From positions 682,001-746,000 of the forward strand of contig NZ_JAQNDK010000005.1 of NCBI RefSeq assembly GCF_028368935.1: a stretch of DNA of 64,000 nt. Direction: 5' to 3'. The notes beneath the pieces are model-generated. The model did no database searches and was not told the DNA's origin. It saw only the letters and a program-made list of their open reading frames with translations. How positions within the stretch are numbered: position 1 is the first letter of the stretch; every line of letters begins with the position of its first letter. This DNA comes from Sorangium aterium (GTDB lineage Bacteria > Myxococcota_A > Polyangia > Polyangiales > Polyangiaceae). Positions 38,822-47,546 of this stretch are shown one piece after another. The position numbers and the translations under genes are program-made.

Positions 38822-40071
38822 CGCTCCTCCGCCGAGCGGCGTCCGCCGCCGCGCTGGCGCTCTCGTCGTCTGCGCTGGCGCTCTCGCGGTCTGCGCTGGC
38901 GCTCTCGTCGTCTGCGCTGGCGCTCTCGTCGTCTGCGCTGGCGCTCTCGCTCGCCGGATGCGCGGCGCAGGCCGCGGCGCCCCTCCCGCCGCTCGTCGTG
39001 CGCGAGGTCGCGTGGCCGTCCCCGGGGGAGCTCGGCCCGGTGCGCGCGGTCGCCGACGACGGGCGCCGCGTCGTGGTGTTCCACGACGGCGCCGCGGCCG
39101 TCTTCGTGAACGGCGCCCTCGCGAGGGTGGAGCGCGCGCCCCACCGCTGGGTGAGCGCCGCGGCCCTGCCCGCGCCCGACGGCTACGGCACGTGGATCGT
39201 CGGCGTCGACGCCGAGGGCCGGCTGCTCCGGCTCCCGGGCCAGGGGACCTTCGAGGCCGTCTCCGACCGCTACGGCCTCGAGCGCGCCGCGGTGCGGTCC
39301 GCGATCGGCCTCGGCGAGGGCGGCGCCACCTTCGCGCTGGACCGCGAGATCGCGGTGGCGGACGGCGAGACCGTCACGCGCTACGCGACGGGCCCGCTCG
39401 CGACGTTCGCGGCGGGGGCCGGGCGCGTGGCCTTCGCGGCCGGGGGCGACGGGCTCGGCGCCCTCGACGTCGCCACGAGGGCGCTGCGATCGTACCCGCT
39501 CCCGGCGGACGGCGCCGCGCCGCTCCTCGCCCTGACCGGCGCGGGCGCGCTGCTCGCGGCGACGCCCGAGGCGCTCTACGCGGAGGACGGCGCCGGCGTC
39601 CTGCGCCTCCGGTTCCGGGCGCGCGCCGCGCTCCACGGGCTCGCCGTCTCCGGCGACCGCGCGTGGTTCGCCGACGGCGACGAGCTCGGCGTGCTCGACA
39701 AGGCCGGCGCGCGCGAGACCCGCGGCGCGCGCCTCCCGCAGGGCGGCAGGCTCGTCGGCTCGCCGAGCGGCGACGTGTGGCTGCTCGCGTCGGGCGCCCT
39801 CCGGCGCTTCGCCGCAGAGGACGACGCCGGGCCCGCCTGGGGCGAGATCGCGCCCGTGTTCGCCCGCGCGTGTGCGCGCTGCCACCGCCCGCGCGGCGAG
39901 GGCGGCGTCGACCTCTCCACGCCCGCCGCGTGGGCTTCGCTCCGCGAGGCCATCGCGCGCCGGGTCGTCGACGAGCGGAATATGCCGCCCCCGGGAAACA
40001 CGCTGTCCGAGGCCGACCGCGCGCGGATCCGCGCCTTCGTCCGGCGCGCAGGGCCGCCCGCGCGGCCGTGA
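38818..40071 (+). CDS. Heme c-binding lipoprotein with beta-propeller-like body
   Basis: 417 aa. GTG 38818 overlaps the TGA of the DUF1501 gene (GTGA). The N-terminus is odd: ALALSSS is repeated about four times before the lipobox LAGC, making a much longer hydrophobic-like leader than normal. A body of short beta segments follows (VAVADGETVTRYATGPLATF, WFADGDELGVLDKAGARETR), and a C-terminal cytochrome-type motif CARCH with VVDERNMPPPGNTLSEADR (Met as likely distal ligand). It is probably an envelope electron carrier paired with DUF1501. Confidence 0.82.
   Translation: MTLLRRAASAAALALSSSALALSRSALALSSSALALSSSALALSLAGCAAQAAAPLPPLVVREVAWPSPGELGPVRAVADDGRRVVVFHDGAAAVFVNGALARVERAPHRWVSAAALPAPDGYGTWIVGVDAEGRLLRLPGQGTFEAVSDRYGLERAAVRSAIGLGEGGATFALDREIAVADGETVTRYATGPLATFAAGAGRVAFAAGGDGLGALDVATRALRSYPLPADGAAPLLALTGAGALLAATPEALYAEDGAGVLRLRFRARAALHGLAVSGDRAWFADGDELGVLDKAGARETRGARLPQGGRLVGSPSGDVWLLASGALRRFAAEDDAGPAWGEIAPVFARACARCHRPRGEGGVDLSTPAAWASLREAIARRVVDERNMPPPGNTLSEADRARIRAFVRRAGPPARP
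38851..38949 (+). repeat. 21-base tandem repeats encoding an extended signal peptide
   Basis: Four units of gcgctggcgctctcgtcgtc(t) (38851-38871, 38872-38892 with two changes, 38893-38913, 38914-38934) plus a partial fifth to 38949. In frame they code ALALSSS four times. The units are near-identical in DNA, so copy number may vary between strains. Confidence 0.9.
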
Positions 40072-41909: not shown

Positions 41910-41966
41910 TCGGCTGCGAGGCGGGATGACGTCTCCCACGCTTCGCGCGCGAGGCGGCGGGCGTCG

Positions 41967-42008
41967 CCCTCGACGACGACGTCATGATGTGCCGCGCCGC
42001 TTGGCACA
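41967..42008 (+). promoter_or_regulatory. Conserved 42-base block upstream of Kunitz gene 1
   Basis: 39 of 42 bases match the block at 46586-46627, and both lie about 89 bases before the start codons of paralogous Kunitz lipoprotein genes. It contains TGTGCC-N9-GGCACA (41988-42008), an inverted repeat of operator size. The block is probably a shared promoter or regulatory site (inference). Confidence 0.55.
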
Positions 42009-42097
42009 CCGCGCCCTGCAGCCCCCTCGATTCCGCGGGCGTTTCGCAGATCCATCGACCGGACGTCGTGGGCACACCGGTTGCCACATGCTGCGGC

Positions 42098-43030
42098 ATG
42101 CTCCGCGGCTTACCCCTGGGTCTTGGTTTGCTTACCTCCCTTCTGCTTGTCGCGGGCTGCTCCGGGACGGTGAACCACACAGGTACCGGCGGCGGGGATC
42201 CGGGTGGCGCCGGCTCGGTCGCGGGGACCGGCGACTCCGGCTCGGTCGCGGGCACGGGCGGCTCCGGCTCGGGGACGGGGACCGGCTCGGGGACGGGGAC
42301 CGGAGGCGCGGGGACCGGAGGCGCGGGGATTGCCGGAGCGGGAGGCGCCGGCGGGGGATTGCCCGCGCGATGCACGCTGCCGCAGGATATCGGGCCCTGC
42401 GATGGCGCGATCCCGCGCTACTGGCACGATCCGCGAACAGGCGTGTGCGTCCCTTTCTCTTATGGCGGCTGCGAGGGCAACGAGAATCGCTTCGAGTCGC
42501 TCGAGCAGTGCCAGGAGGCCTGTCAGGGCGGCGTTCCTGACATGGATGCGTGCGAGGCGCTGGGCGATTGCATCCTCGCATCGCCGGGCTGCTGCGGCGC
42601 CTGCGATCCCGTCGATGCCCGCGCGTTCGTCGCGCTCAACCGGGCGAGCGTGCACGACTACCAGATGGCCACCGGGTGCGAGGGGGTGGCGTGCGCGCCG
42701 TGCCCGGATGTCGACGAATCCGAGCGCAGCTCTCAGTACTTCGCCGCCACGTGCGAGGCCGGGCGCTGCGTCGTCGTCGACGTGCGCGAGTCGCCGCTGA
42801 CAGAATGCGCGATCGCGTCGGACTGCGTCCTGCGCGACGGCCTCGACTGCTGCGAGGGGTGCGACGGGAGAGGCATCGTCGCCCTCAACAAGAGCGCGGA
42901 TCTCCAAGGCATGATCTGTCCCGGCAACCTCGGCGCCGCGTGCAATCCGTGCGCGCCCGTGTACCCGCCCGGGATGACGGCGGTCTGCTCGTCGGGCAGG
43001 TGTCAACCGCAGATGCCCGCCACACCTTGA
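42098..43030 (+). CDS. Lipoprotein with Kunitz/BPTI domain (copy 1)
   Basis: 310 aa. Signal plus lipobox VAGC (C21), a Gly/Thr/Ser spacer (25-88), then a complete Kunitz domain: C92, C101, C117, C125, C138 and C142 have exactly the BPTI spacing (8, 15, 7, 12, 3), with the YGGC core. The P1 residue next to C2 is D102, not Lys/Arg. A second Cys-rich region (about 150-300) shows an internal duplication (DCILASPGCCGAC and DCVLRDGLDCCEGC). The protein is probably lipid-anchored and exported; inhibition of a protease is possible but not shown. A paralogue lies at 46716-47546. Confidence 0.85.
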   Translation: MLRGLPLGLGLLTSLLLVAGCSGTVNHTGTGGGDPGGAGSVAGTGDSGSVAGTGGSGSGTGTGSGTGTGGAGTGGAGIAGAGGAGGGLPARCTLPQDIGPCDGAIPRYWHDPRTGVCVPFSYGGCEGNENRFESLEQCQEACQGGVPDMDACEALGDCILASPGCCGACDPVDARAFVALNRASVHDYQMATGCEGVACAPCPDVDESERSSQYFAATCEAGRCVVVDVRESPLTECAIASDCVLRDGLDCCEGCDGRGIVALNKSADLQGMICPGNLGAACNPCAPVYPPGMTAVCSSGRCQPQMPATP

Positions 43031-43089
43031 GCGAGAAGCGCGCCCGGCGTGCGCCGCCGTCGGCCCCAACCAGGGGCAGTTCGTGCAGG

Positions 43090-44289
43090 ATGGGGGCGAA
43101 GGAGCCCGGCGCCACCGTCGCTCTCGATCCGCGAGACGTGATGGGCCCGCTCGACCCCCACCGGCGGGACTTCCTCGCTGCCGCCAAGGCCATCCTCCTC
43201 CTCGCCGCGCCCGCGTTCGTCGCGGCGGCGGGGGATGCCCGTGCCGACATCGCGGTGAGCGCGGGCGGCGTCGAGCTCGACTGGATCGCGCCCGGAGAAT
43301 GCGCGGATCGAGGGCGCGTGCTGGCCGAGATCGAGCAGCGCCTCGGGCGGTCGTCCGCGGCGAACGGCGAGCCGTCGCTGAAGGCGCGCGCGGTGGTGTC
43401 CCGGAACGAGCGCGGGTCGTGGGACCTCCGCCTCACGACGACGCTCGGCGAGACGACACACTCGCGCGAGCTCCACGGCGAGACCTGCGCCGAACTCGCC
43501 GACGCGGCGGCGCTGATCATCGCGCTCGCCATCGATCCCGACGCAGCCAGCCGCAGCACCCCGACGGCGGATCCGGACACTGGCGCGGGGCCAGGCGAAC
43601 TCTCCGGCGCGGATCCAGGCGCCGGCGCGGATCCGGGCGCCAGCGCGGATCCAGGCGCCGGCGCGGATCCAGAGGTGGACGCTGCTCCGGATGCGCCCAC
43701 CGCCGCCGATGCGCCGCCCGCGGTCTCGTCCCCGCCGGGGGCCAGCGCGGCCCCGGCGCAGCACCCGTCGCGTCCCCTCGAGCTGCGCGGCACGCTCAGG
43801 GCCTCCGGCGTCCTCGACACCGCCTCGCTCCCGGCGGTCGCCCCGGGCGCCGCCATCGCCGCAGGCGTGCTGATCGGAGCCGTCCGCGCCGAGCTGTCCG
43901 GTACGTACTTCGGCGCGCAGCAAGCGTTCGTCGAGCGGACGACGATGGGCGGCGACGTCCAGCTGATCACCGGCGGGCTGCGCCTTTGTTATGCCATGCG
44001 CTATCGCGCGTTCGAGCTCGGGCCCTGCGCCGGCATCGAGGTCGGCGTCATGAGCGCGGCCAGCTTCGGCGCGGCGTCGCCCGGCTCGAACCGGGCGCTC
44101 TGGGTCGCGCCGCACCCCGGAGCGCTCGCGAGCTTCGCCCTTTCGGACCAGATCCGCGTCCCGCTCGCGATCGACGTCCCGTTCCCGGTGACGCGGGATC
44201 GGTTCGTGCTCGTCGGCATCGGCGCGGTCCACCGGAGCGCCGCCGCCACGCTCCGCGCCTCGCTGGGGGTCGAGGTGCGATTTCCGTGA
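43090..44289 (+). CDS. Putative outer-membrane beta-barrel protein upstream of ECF sigma gene
   Basis: 399 aa from ATG 43090 (ATG 43141 is an alternative). A hydrophobic leader (AILLLAAPAFVAAAGDARA) precedes a globular domain (about 55-150), a low-complexity linker of ADPGAG-type units (43609-43680 is an 18-base tandem repeat), and a C-terminal region (about 230-399) with alternating hydrophobic strands as in small outer-membrane barrels. Its stop overlaps the GTG of the sigma gene, so they are co-expressed. No named family recognised. Confidence 0.7.
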   Translation: MGAKEPGATVALDPRDVMGPLDPHRRDFLAAAKAILLLAAPAFVAAAGDARADIAVSAGGVELDWIAPGECADRGRVLAEIEQRLGRSSAANGEPSLKARAVVSRNERGSWDLRLTTTLGETTHSRELHGETCAELADAAALIIALAIDPDAASRSTPTADPDTGAGPGELSGADPGAGADPGASADPGAGADPEVDAAPDAPTAADAPPAVSSPPGASAAPAQHPSRPLELRGTLRASGVLDTASLPAVAPGAAIAAGVLIGAVRAELSGTYFGAQQAFVERTTMGGDVQLITGGLRLCYAMRYRAFELGPCAGIEVGVMSAASFGAASPGSNRALWVAPHPGALASFALSDQIRVPLAIDVPFPVTRDRFVLVGIGAVHRSAAATLRASLGVEVRFP

Positions 44290-44909
44290 CGGATCCAGAC
44301 GGCGCCGGCCATGTACTTCGCGTGACGAGGACGTCCCCCGCGTCGGCGCTTCCCTTCGCGGGGTCCGTGTTCGATCCGCACCCTGGCGTCCACGACGCGC
44401 CCGTCTCTCTCGATTTCGACGCGCTCTACGACGAGCAAGCCGACTTCGTCTGGCGAAACCTGCGCCGGCTCGGCGTCAGCGAGGCGAGCCTGGACGACGC
44501 CTTCCAGGACGTCTTCGTCGTGGTCCACCGGCGGCTCGGCGAGTTCGAGCCGCGGTCGAGCGTGAAGGCGTGGCTGTTCGCGATCCTCTGCCGGGTGGCG
44601 CGCGATCACCGGCGCCTCGTCCGGCGCAAGGGAGGGCTCGAGGAGCTGCCGGGCGGCGTGGCGGACCGCGCGCCGGGGCCGGCGGAGCGGCTCGAGCAGG
44701 TCGAGGCCCTGAAGCTCGTCGACGCGCTCCTCTCGGCGCTCGACGACGACAAGCGCGCGGTGCTCGTGATGGCGGAGATCGAGGAGATGAGCGCGCCGGA
44801 GATCGCCGCGGCGCTCGACGTGAAGCTGAACACGGTCTACTCGCGGCTGCGCGCAGCGCGCCGCGAGTTCGAGCTGGCGCTGGCGAGGAGCGGGGGCGGG
44901 TGGCCATGA
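44286..44909 (+). CDS. ECF-family RNA polymerase sigma factor
   Basis: 207 aa. Region 2: LYDEQADFVWRNLRRLG, then SLDDAFQDVFVVVHRRL and SVKAWLFAILCRVARDHRR. Region 4: DDDKRAVLVMAEIEEMSAPE and ALDVKLNTVYSRLRAARREF, the helix-turn-helix. It starts with GTG overlapping the upstream stop (GTGA), and its own TGA overlaps the next ATG (ATGA), so three genes are translationally linked. It probably directs envelope-stress or differentiation genes; the trigger is unknown. GTG codons further in could give a shorter protein. Confidence 0.9.
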   Translation: MTDPDGAGHVLRVTRTSPASALPFAGSVFDPHPGVHDAPVSLDFDALYDEQADFVWRNLRRLGVSEASLDDAFQDVFVVVHRRLGEFEPRSSVKAWLFAILCRVARDHRRLVRRKGGLEELPGGVADRAPGPAERLEQVEALKLVDALLSALDDDKRAVLVMAEIEEMSAPEIAAALDVKLNTVYSRLRAARREFELALARSGGGWP

Positions 44910-45754
44910 GCGATCCGGGCGAGAGGGCGCGCGCGCTCCTGAGGGCGGCCCGAGCGGACGGGCTCGCGCCGTCCGACAAGGCGCGGCTCCGCGCGGCGCT
45001 CGCGGGCAAGCTGGCGGTCGGCGCGCCGCAGGAGCCGTCCGGGGAGGCGCCCACCTCGCCCCCGCCGCCGCTCGCGGGCAGCGGGGCAGGCGGCGGCGTC
45101 CTCGCGGGCAAGGCGGCCGGCGGCGTGCTCTCGGGCAAGGTGATCGCGGCGGGCGCGCTGATCGGCGCCGTCGCCTTCGCCGGCGGCTTCTTCACCGGCA
45201 GGGCGACCGTCGACGCCCCTCCTCCGGCCAGCGCGGCGCCGCCGGCGAGCGCGCCCGCGGTGGCGCCGCCCGCGGCGACGCCGCCCGCTGCGGCTCCGGA
45301 GACCGCGCCGGCGCCGAAGGCGGCGCCCCCGCGCCCGCGCGCCCCTCGCGCGGTCGCGCCGGCACCGCCGCGGCCGCTGGACCTGGGCGCGGAGGACGCC
45401 GCACGAGCGCCCTCGACAGGTGGCGGCGAACGCGAGCCGGCGCGCTCGCGCGGCGGACAGCCGGCGAGGCCGAGCACGCTCGCCGCGGAGATGGCCTTGC
45501 TGCGCGAGGCGCAGGACGCCGTGCGGGACGGCGATCCGTCGGCCGCGCTCGAGCGCCTCGACGACCTCGGCGCCCGGTTTCCAGAGGGCCAGCTCCGCGA
45601 GGAGCGCATGGCCGCGCGCGTGCTCGCCCTCTGCGCCGCGGGGCGGGCGCGGGAGGCGCGCGCGGAGGCCGAGCGGCTCCTCGGCGAAGCAACGGGCTCG
45701 GTGCACGCGGGCCGCGTCCGCGCATCATGCGCGTTCCGAGAAAATCTCGACTGA
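44906..45754 (+). CDS. Membrane protein with TPR-like tail, possible anti-sigma
   Basis: 282 aa. A cytoplasmic helical N-terminus (ERARALLRAARADGLAPSDK), one TM helix (about 68-90, VIAAGALIGAVAFAGGFFTG), a long Pro/Ala-rich periplasmic stretch, and a C-terminal TPR-like region (AEMALLREAQDAVRDGDPSA). An anti-sigma role is inferred only from its topology and its position directly after the ECF sigma gene with ATGA overlap; it has no zinc HxxxCxxC motif. Confidence 0.7.
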   Translation: MSDPGERARALLRAARADGLAPSDKARLRAALAGKLAVGAPQEPSGEAPTSPPPPLAGSGAGGGVLAGKAAGGVLSGKVIAAGALIGAVAFAGGFFTGRATVDAPPPASAAPPASAPAVAPPAATPPAAAPETAPAPKAAPPRPRAPRAVAPAPPRPLDLGAEDAARAPSTGGGEREPARSRGGQPARPSTLAAEMALLREAQDAVRDGDPSAALERLDDLGARFPEGQLREERMAARVLALCAAGRAREARAEAERLLGEATGSVHAGRVRASCAFRENLD

Positions 45755-45817
45755 CAGAGACGGATGTTCCTCGCGCCGGCCATGTACCGATGGACCGCAA
45801 GAGACAGGAGGAACCAC

Positions 45818-46561
45818 ATGAATAGTTCGACTCGCGTCGCGCTCGCGTTGCTCTTCACCGCTGCCTCGCTCGGGAACACCGGCTGTCAGTCGCAGGACCG
45901 GCCCATTGGCGGCGGTGAACCCAGCCCCGACAGCAACGACAGCAACGACTCCAGCGCGGCCGCGCTGCTCATCGCGCGCTGGGAGGGATATATCGAGAAC
46001 TACCAATTCCCCTCGGGAACGGACGTGATCCAGCTCGACATCGACACCGTGGAGGGCACGTCGATTCAGGGGAAGGTGCGCTTCGGCGCGGGGGCCTCGG
46101 TCCCCCCGCCCGTGGATCCGGACGTGGGCTATCCCCCGAGCGCCGACCCGGACCACCGATACGATACCCACGTGCCTTCCGAAGGGTTCGATTTCACCAT
46201 GTTCGGTGCGCAGCTCACCGACCGCCGGCTGCTGTTCTCCATCGACCCCCGGGAGCTCTGGAAGGGATGGTGCGAGCTTCAAGCGTCGTACCCCGTGTCT
46301 CCTGGCTCAGAGACCTACCTCTGCATGCCCAACGAGGGGTGGAGTGGAGGGCCCGACGTCTGCTACCAGGGCGGGCAGCCCGCCGACTGCGGATACCTGG
46401 AGCTGTGTGGAAGCTTCATTTGCGATTGTCGTGAGTCCGGGTGCACCGTCGATGCGCAGAGTGCGGTCGGCTTCGATGTTGCCATCGACGAGCAGGAGGC
46501 GAACGGCAGCATTACGTTCGGGAGCAAGCTCTACAACGTCCGGCTGACGCGCGACCCCTGA
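45818..46561 (+). CDS. Lipoprotein of unknown function
   Basis: 247 aa. AGGAGG lies 6-7 bases before ATG 45818, and the signal ALALLFTAASLGNTGC ends in a plausible lipobox. The N-terminal spacer is rich in Ser/Asn/Asp; the body has about eight Cys residues near the C-terminus (CDCRESGC). No family recognised. Confidence 0.72.
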   Translation: MNSSTRVALALLFTAASLGNTGCQSQDRPIGGGEPSPDSNDSNDSSAAALLIARWEGYIENYQFPSGTDVIQLDIDTVEGTSIQGKVRFGAGASVPPPVDPDVGYPPSADPDHRYDTHVPSEGFDFTMFGAQLTDRRLLFSIDPRELWKGWCELQASYPVSPGSETYLCMPNEGWSGGPDVCYQGGQPADCGYLELCGSFICDCRESGCTVDAQSAVGFDVAIDEQEANGSITFGSKLYNVRLTRDP

Positions 46562-46585
46562 CGGCGAGCAGCTCAGGGACCGGTC

Positions 46586-46627
46586 CCCTCGACGACGCCG
46601 TCATGGTGTGCCGCGCCGCCTGGCACA
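46586..46627 (+). promoter_or_regulatory. Conserved 42-base block upstream of Kunitz gene 2
   Basis: Matches 41967-42008 at 39 of 42 positions and lies 88 bases before the ATG at 46716 (89 in the other copy). The inverted repeat TGTGCC-N9-GGCACA (46607-46627) is kept. The conservation of sequence and distance suggests a regulatory element that was duplicated together with the gene. Confidence 0.55.
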
Positions 46628-46715
46628 TCGAGGCCCAGCGCTCGCGCGATCTGGGCTGCGATCGGCCGGCGCCTCGGCCGGACGCCCAGGGCATGCCCGT
46701 TGCAACTCGCCCGGC

Positions 46716-47546
46716 ATGCCTCGGCGCTTATCCCTGGGTCTTGGCTTGCTTACATCCCTTCTGCTCGCCGCAGGCTGCTCCGGGAAGGTGGACCGCGCAG
46801 GCTCGGGCGGCGGGGACCCGGGCGGCGGCGGTTCGTCTGCGGAGACCGGCGGCGGCGGCGCTGGCGGCGACGGGCAATTGCCCGTCCGGTGCCTGCTGCC
46901 GGCGGATCCTGGCCGGTGTGACGCGGCGTTCCCGAAATACTGGTACGACCCGGCCGCCGGCGCGTGCAGGGAGTTCACCTACGGCGGCTGTGAGGGCAAC
47001 GAGAACCGCTTCGATTCCCTCGACGCGTGCGAGGAAGCCTGTCGGGGCGAGCTTCCCGACATAGGCGTCTGCAACGCGCCGAGCGATTGCGTCCTGGTGT
47101 CGCGGGGCTGCTGCGGCGCCTGTGACACGGCCAGTGCCGAGAACTTCAGAGCCATCAACCGCGCCGGGACGAAGCTCGACGAGATCATCAACGGGTGCGG
47201 GGGCGTCGCGTGCGGGGCGTGCCCGGAGGTCACCGAGGCGGAGCGCACGACCCAGTACTTCACCGCCACGTGCGAGGCGGGGCGCTGCGTCGTCCTCGAC
47301 GTGCGCGAGTCGCCGCTGACGGAGTGCACGGTCGACTTGGACTGCGCCCTGCGGGACGGCCTCGGCTGCTGCGAGGGGTGCGACGGGACAGGCATCGTCG
47401 CCCTCAGCCAGAGCGCGGAGCTCGATGCCCTTGTCTGCCCCGCCGGCATGGGCGCGTGCCCCCCGTGCGCGCCCGTGTTCCCGGACGGGATGACGGCGGT
47501 CTGCTCGTCGGGCAGGTGTCAGCCGCAGATGCCCGCGACACCTTGA
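46716..47546 (+). CDS. Lipoprotein with Kunitz/BPTI domain (copy 2)
   Basis: 276 aa. Paralogue of 42098-43030: near-identical signal (LSLGLGLLTSLLLAAGC), a shorter Gly-rich spacer, and a full Kunitz domain with C59, C68, C84, C92, C105 and C109 at the exact BPTI spacing and YGGC. P1 is again Asp (D69). The downstream Cys-rich tandem region and the C-terminal CSSGRCQPQMPATP end are shared. The pair flanks the ECF sigma operon and the 45818 lipoprotein. Possible roles are protease inhibition, adhesion or a structural disulfide module. Confidence 0.85.
   Translation: MPRRLSLGLGLLTSLLLAAGCSGKVDRAGSGGGDPGGGGSSAETGGGGAGGDGQLPVRCLLPADPGRCDAAFPKYWYDPAAGACREFTYGGCEGNENRFDSLDACEEACRGELPDIGVCNAPSDCVLVSRGCCGACDTASAENFRAINRAGTKLDEIINGCGGVACGACPEVTEAERTTQYFTATCEAGRCVVLDVRESPLTECTVDLDCALRDGLGCCEGCDGTGIVALSQSAELDALVCPAGMGACPPCAPVFPDGMTAVCSSGRCQPQMPATP

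Follow-up and report, generated by a model that had tools for sequence, protein, structure and literature searches.

The window analysed here, a 64,000-nucleotide stretch of the Sorangium aterium genome (assembly GCF_028368935.1, contig NZ_JAQNDK010000005.1, positions 682,001 to 746,000), encodes two lipoproteins, KunA and KunB, each with a Kunitz domain that has aspartate at the P1 position of its inhibitor loop, followed by a pair of ten-cysteine repeats. KunA (P0001, 310 amino acids; 42098..43030, plus strand) and KunB (P0002, 276 amino acids; 46716..47546, plus strand) are open reading frames (ORFs), KunA with orthologues, and both matched PF00014 over the full profile, with E values of 7.2e-21 and 9.1e-21 and scores of 74.6 and 74.2 bits (cut-off 21). 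The BPTI cysteine spacing (C-x8-C-x15-C-x7-C-x12-C-x3-C) and YGGC core that the initial annotation had reported were exact in both proteins, and the six frames of the window contained the pattern exactly twice, with no instance in 100 codon-shuffled versions. From Cys1 to Cys6 the domain spans 42371..42523 in KunA and 46890..47042 in KunB (both plus strand), and the P1 aspartate of that annotation is encoded by GAT (42401-42403) and GAC (46920-46922), respectively.

Structure prediction agreed with the Kunitz assignment. The AlphaFold model of the whole protein had a mean predicted local distance difference test score (pLDDT) of 56, at which repeat 2 was not interpretable, and scores of 61-81 for the Kunitz blocks. 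Strands at residues 105-111 and 116-122 and a helix at 135-142 were placed as in BPTI. Residues 86-145 aligned with Kunitz structures at Z scores of about 9, the best being 9.7 with a root-mean-square deviation (rmsd) of 1.8 over 59 residues; for the BPTI variant 1qlq the values were Z 9.2 and rmsd 1.7 over 58 residues. The domain of KunA and KunB is predicted to adopt the BPTI/Kunitz fold, and by homology its disulfides would pair as 1-6, 2-4 and 3-5.

The bacterial lipoprotein character and Gly-rich spacer, also described at the outset, were read again by eye as a signal peptide with lipobox LVAGC (Cys21) at 42098..42160 in KunA and LAAGC at 46716..46778 in KunB, both on the plus strand. Cys21 was unchanged across 13 aligned proteins. 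A spacer rich in Gly, Ser and Thr is present in both proteins, and in KunA it occupies 42161..42364 (plus strand) and consists in part of tandem-repeat DNA. Translation starts at 42098 and 46716 are favoured, because a conserved upstream block (see below) overlaps the longer in-frame extension of KunA, and the equivalent ATG before KunB is out of frame.

At E <= 0.001 PF00014 matched three times in the 13.47 Mb source genome, to which Sorangium strains were closest among the named genomes scanned; the third copy (L126) lies on another contig. All three have aspartate at P1 in place of the lysine or arginine that is a trait of canonical trypsin-type Kunitz inhibitors (MEROPS I2). The view of the initial annotation that KunA and KunB cannot be ordinary trypsin inhibitors would fit the low association constants published for Asp at P1 of BPTI (PMC9312475), a source that also cites trypsin binding by an acidic-P1 BPTI variant. 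The loop around it, GPCDG in KunA and GRCDA in KunB, keeps the glycine at P3 and a small residue at P1'.

The P1 position across bacterial Kunitz domains

Loci were collected by family-profile searches and one pattern scan seeded with Sorangium sequences, so the census is biased to the window's phylum. From 125 loci we obtained 109 distinct Kunitz stretches, 99 of them readable (10 that were cut off or Cys-poor were dropped) and 88 with the strict six-cysteine pattern (11 more dropped). At P1 these 88 domains carry Asp (40), Glu (16), Arg (15), Thr (4), Lys (3), Ala (3), Gln (3), Asn (2) or Leu (2), giving totals of 56 acidic and 18 Lys/Arg. A hand count without the eight Sorangium rows gave 49/80 acidic and 17/80 basic, and counted per genome (n = 47) an acidic-P1 domain occurs in 34, a basic one in 16 and both in five. 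Acidic residues account for 43 of the 68 domains from the window's phylum, 5/10 from two Planctomycetota genomes and 8/10 from two Chitinophagales genomes. Bacterial Kunitz domains in this sample have Asp at P1 more often than any other residue, and it is not a peculiarity of the locus; as a special feature of KunA and KunB, the sense in which it had first been put forward, it did not hold up, and one Sorangium copy of the Kunitz-tandem protein (L037/L040) even has Lys there. Ten animal Kunitz domains, a small yardstick, showed T, R, K, K, A, K, R, R, M and R at P1, none of them acidic; an eleventh, the second HAI-1 domain (P1 Lys), was left out as incompletely aligned.

The residues beside P1 are kept. 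Gly is found at P3 in 87/88 domains and Ala or Gly at P1' in 80/88, including 51 of the 56 acidic-P1 and 17 of the 18 basic-P1 domains, and the entropy of P1 is 2.4 bits against 0.1 bits for P3 and 1.1 bits for P1'. Among the 83 domains of 51 amino acids, acidity is 63% at P1, compared with a mean of 13% over the other 44 non-Cys columns. On the domain tree the acidic or basic class of P1 required 11 changes, five of them forced by well-supported branches, and one multi-Kunitz protein (L050) contains the P1 states R, R, D, D, T, E, R and D. Because P1 varies, also within this single protein, while its loop neighbors stay fixed, the position behaves like a specificity-setting site. Kazal inhibitor domains were found in five of the seven bacterial Kunitz proteins scanned, one of the five (L054) falling just below the Pfam cut-off. 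L050, L051 and L052, from Planctomycetota and Chitinophagales, are large proteins that combine several Kunitz domains (nine in L050) with Kazal domains.

PF00014 was detected in 24/377 sampled genomes of the window's phylum, 28/108 of its family and 6/6 of its genus (own genome included), in 1/343 genomes of the phylum of a Planctomycetota record, namely the seed itself, and in 6/345 of the phylum of a Chitinophagales record, seed included. Because of these counts we regard the Kunitz domain as uncommon in bacteria, as the initial annotation had it, yet recurrent in the window's lineage. No relatives were found in the viral contigs searched. For the candidate reading of horizontal transfer from animals, a tree of 78 bacterial domains (rows of 51 amino acids from the 88, leaving out genomes G395 and G396 as long branches) and the ten animal domains, built on 50 columns and with 43 of its 85 inner branches open, set the animal rows apart from the Sorangium rows (support 100/99) and the other bacteria in no group.

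The ten-cysteine tandem and its fusion to the Kunitz domain

The second Cys-rich tandem mentioned in the initial annotation proved to be two homologous ten-cysteine repeats at the C terminus, at 42551..42769 and 42806..43003 in KunA and at 47070..47288 and 47325..47519 in KunB (all plus strand). Profiles of the two repeats matched each other with best E values of 2e-8 and 4e-8 (weakest 0.002). The repeats were present in 30/192 genomes of the class (11-row profile), and the tandem in at least 38/377 genomes of the phylum (13-row tandem profile), 20 of them in the same family, 15 in the same order and three elsewhere, with scoring limited to ten candidates per genome. Two repeats are carried by 41 of the 44 distinct ORFs among the collected loci, and the tandem is mostly followed by no more than about ten residues before the C terminus, L098 being an exception with some 50. 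In 13 tandem members chosen for diversity 19 cysteines were invariant. A Myxococcales Kunitz protein (L049, 3726-5354) has an extra Cys-rich stretch that is ten-Cys-like by eye and lies below the profile threshold for tandem ORFs.

At E <= 1 Pfam matched only Kunitz in P0001 and P0002 and nothing in four Kunitz-free tandem members, and NCBIfam gave no match in P0001 and P0002. The predicted model of repeat 1 (17 rows; mean pLDDT 83.5) has the order strand-strand-helix-strand-strand; none of the 47 Foldseek matches listed reached E <= 0.001 and none of 135 aligned candidate structures had a Z score of 2 or more, results with which a known fold is still compatible. One sequence match of the repeat in the PDB, at E 0.29, was taken as chance. 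The ten-Cys pair is a more novel part of the finding than the acidic P1.

The 13 Kunitz-tandem fusions grouped as one clade in a tree built from 46 tandem regions (support 99/92; the branch was present in 97% of 200 bootstrap trees). Four single-repeat ORFs were skipped in this tree, and L098 and L119, both fused, sat on long branches. The 13 fused proteins span four genera and have Asp (9), Glu (2), Lys (1) or Asn (1) at P1, so that 11/13 are acidic, and 12 of them retain all six Kunitz cysteines. The pattern looks like that of a single, stable fusion between Kunitz domain and tandem. Within the clade KunA and KunB are successive branches and not sisters (91/88), for which reason a recent tandem duplication of the pair, considered as a candidate, was not supported; they are 66% identical, the same as to orthologues, and their relation was unresolved in one tree. 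In the Sorangium So ce26 copy (L034/L043) the end of the second ten-Cys repeat lies in another frame, through a frameshift or sequencing error.

In the six genomes examined from one genus (labeled g18; L196-L201) the gene with the Kunitz match and a tandem ten-Cys gene are unfused, 2.7-3.7 kb apart and on opposite strands; between the two, L196 encodes a large exported protein and a further lipoprotein. Together with the fusion, this neighborhood suggests a Rosetta-stone-like link, which counts as one evolutionary observation. Genome G102 contains both genes, far apart.

Possible functions of KunA and KunB

Taking as established the genes, the predicted fold, the P1 residue, the conservation of the loop and the single fusion clade, we tentatively favor a role of KunA and KunB as surface-tethered, canonical-loop inhibitors or binders of non-trypsin specificity. 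The lipobox signal peptide would anchor them as surface lipoproteins, and the Gly-rich spacer may keep the Kunitz domain off the membrane. Since the canonical loop is kept while P1 is acidic, we propose that it would block or capture a protease, or a protease-like partner, with a primary pocket unlike that of trypsin. Capture may take place at the cell's own surface, for example on contact with prey or competitors. The ten-Cys pair would be a separate, more widespread module, with a second partner or the cell surface as its probable ligand. The wider proposal, that bacterial Kunitz domains form a distinct class shifted at P1 to Asp or Glu for acidic-P1-preferring or other non-trypsin proteases, and fused once in the Polyangiaceae to an undescribed ten-Cys tandem as a cell-surface anti-protease, is in our judgment rather doubtful.

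Several observations weigh against an inhibitor of this kind. According to PMC9312475, Asp was the BPTI P1 variant with the lowest association constants toward four proteases. P1 is also not the only acidic site, as columns 10 and 46 of the 83 aligned domains are at least as acidic, and the P1 class is clustered on the domain tree (for acidic P1, 1/500 shuffles was as low), so that inheritance accounts for part of the pattern. The bacterial sample is small and skewed toward the window's phylum. All six unfused g18 neighbors have Arg at P1. In Sorangium So0157-2 (L036/L041), which keeps the P1 Asp and the tandem, the YGGC cysteine is changed to Gly, which would remove one Kunitz disulfide. Among 20 PF00089 trypsin-like proteases in the own genome no enzyme preferring acidic P1 was recognised, the active-site motif being readable in 13, of which one (L163) has, by eye, the trypsin Asp. 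Asp also outnumbers Glu at P1 (40 vs 16), and such an excess is ill-suited to Glu-preferring endopeptidases.

A rival reading is a non-inhibitory role: the Kunitz domain would serve as a structural or adhesive module rich in disulfides, its acidic P1 averting contact with trypsin-like enzymes, and the actual function, binding of a ligand or surface, would fall to the ten-Cys pair. Acidic P1 disfavors the serine proteases tested in PMC9312475, one copy has lost the YGGC cysteine, and 33 of the 46 rows of the tandem tree are free of Kunitz, the tandem occurring mostly without it. Structural matches of the model further include the Kunitz folds of dendrotoxin and collagen VI, a channel-blocking and a matrix protein. 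Against such a module speak the conservation of the P3 Gly and small P1', the greater variability of P1 than of either, and the co-occurrence of Kazal inhibitors with bacterial Kunitz domains in the same proteins. We consider it a real possibility and prefer the inhibitor or binder over it. The Cys loss in So0157-2, and the So ce26 copy whose C terminus runs into another frame, could also point to a relic under relaxed selection; with six cysteines intact in 12/13 fused proteins and three copies retained in the window genome, this seems improbable. Least probable of all is that these are ordinary trypsin-type inhibitors active at low pH, where an acidic P1 would be neutral. An acidic-P1 BPTI variant is still able to bind trypsin, best at low pH (work cited in PMC9312475), and Lys in L037/L040 and Arg in the six g18 genomes would be in keeping with such a role. 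The published affinities for Asp at P1 are nevertheless the lowest in that source, and acidic P1 in 34/47 census genomes is more than would be expected of a residue that is merely tolerated.

Locus, upstream element and relation to known systems

Beyond the initial annotation, the analysis brought up the third genomic copy, a block of about four genes between KunA and KunB, and an upstream element. In four other Sorangium loci (L038, L039, L041, L042) the gene order is phosphoesterase/TerB, one Kunitz gene, DUF1592 and DUF1552. The window has the same order, but with the block at 43084-46561 separating KunA from KunB. By eye this block holds about four genes, for an outer-membrane-like protein, a sigma factor, a protein of unknown type and a lipoprotein. 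The four other loci could not accommodate it, as the gaps between the flanking genes are too short, and the absence of the sigma factor there is read from these short intergenic gaps. Around L040, L043 and L126 the phosphoesterase/TerB, DUF1592 and DUF1552 neighbors were not found within the fetched 10-11 kb.

A conserved block of about 45 bp lies 85-150 bp before the start in 9/9 aligned Sorangium Kunitz copies, including copies elsewhere in genomes; in the window it is at about 41964-42011 for KunA and 46588-46630 for KunB. It contains a palindrome, TGTGCC-N9-GGCACA, at 41987..42008 upstream of KunA (one base off, at the block's first position of the search pattern) and at 46606..46627 upstream of KunB, both on the plus strand. 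A genome-wide search with the 22 bases of KunB at <= 3 mismatches gave five matches, compared with two for the reversed control: KunB itself (0 mismatches), KunA (2), one unrelated place (2) and two places with 3. The upstream block of the third own copy was too diverged to be found by this search. As an RNA hairpin the palindrome did not exceed shuffled sequences in stability (z -0.42 and 0.73), and a sigma-54 promoter was rejected, by eye, for misfit of the spacing. The simplest guess is that it is a putative DNA operator. Elsewhere in the window, a 21-bp tandem repeat at 38851-38949 (4.7 copies, 94% matches) lies in the signal peptide of a cytochrome-c-type lipoprotein and encodes repeated ALALSSS.

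Automatic annotation in public databases presumably labels genes such as these as Kunitz proteins already, and the domain's presence is therefore not new in itself. Our literature searches returned no paper linking 'Sorangium' with 'Kunitz' and one for 'bacterial Kunitz', and the P1 pattern, the ten-Cys pair and the fusion were not found in the literature searched, in which the ten-Cys pair, being unnamed, could not be sought by name. Should the acidic P1 prove functional, bacteria would possess a naturally occurring repertoire of Kunitz inhibitors whose specificity is seemingly rare among animals; these could serve as reagents and point to the proteases that are important when microbes prey on each other. 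The ten-Cys pair, which recurs in myxobacterial lipoproteins and has no name, merits a family model of its own, and its occurrence in fused and in unfused neighboring forms connects an inhibitor fold functionally, in a way open to testing, with an uncharacterised domain.

Compared with known systems, KunA and KunB resemble the animal Kunitz/BPTI family (PF00014, MEROPS I2) in the six-Cys spacing, the YGGC core, PF00014 matches at E of about 1e-20 and the predicted fold, and are unlike it in their acidic P1, bacterial lipoprotein form and fused ten-Cys pair. The g18 Kunitz proteins (L019, L021-L023, L061, L064) belong to the same bacterial family but are unfused, with Arg at P1 in 6/6. KABP1-5 of Acinetobacter baumannii (PMC11511053) are likewise bacterial Kunitz domains; they differ in having Arg or Leu at P1 and in inhibiting coagulation factors or elastase, and the accessible portion of that paper mentions no ten-Cys pair. 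The beetle protein Kun_Lyd-37798 shares the Asp at P1 and is called, in PMC9312475, an unusual Kunitz seemingly far from a canonical serine protease inhibitor, although it is an animal protein and a single sequence. Pacifastin-like domains, described for bacteria including myxobacteria in PMC13388995, are another animal-type six-Cys inhibitor fold, of a different fold family.

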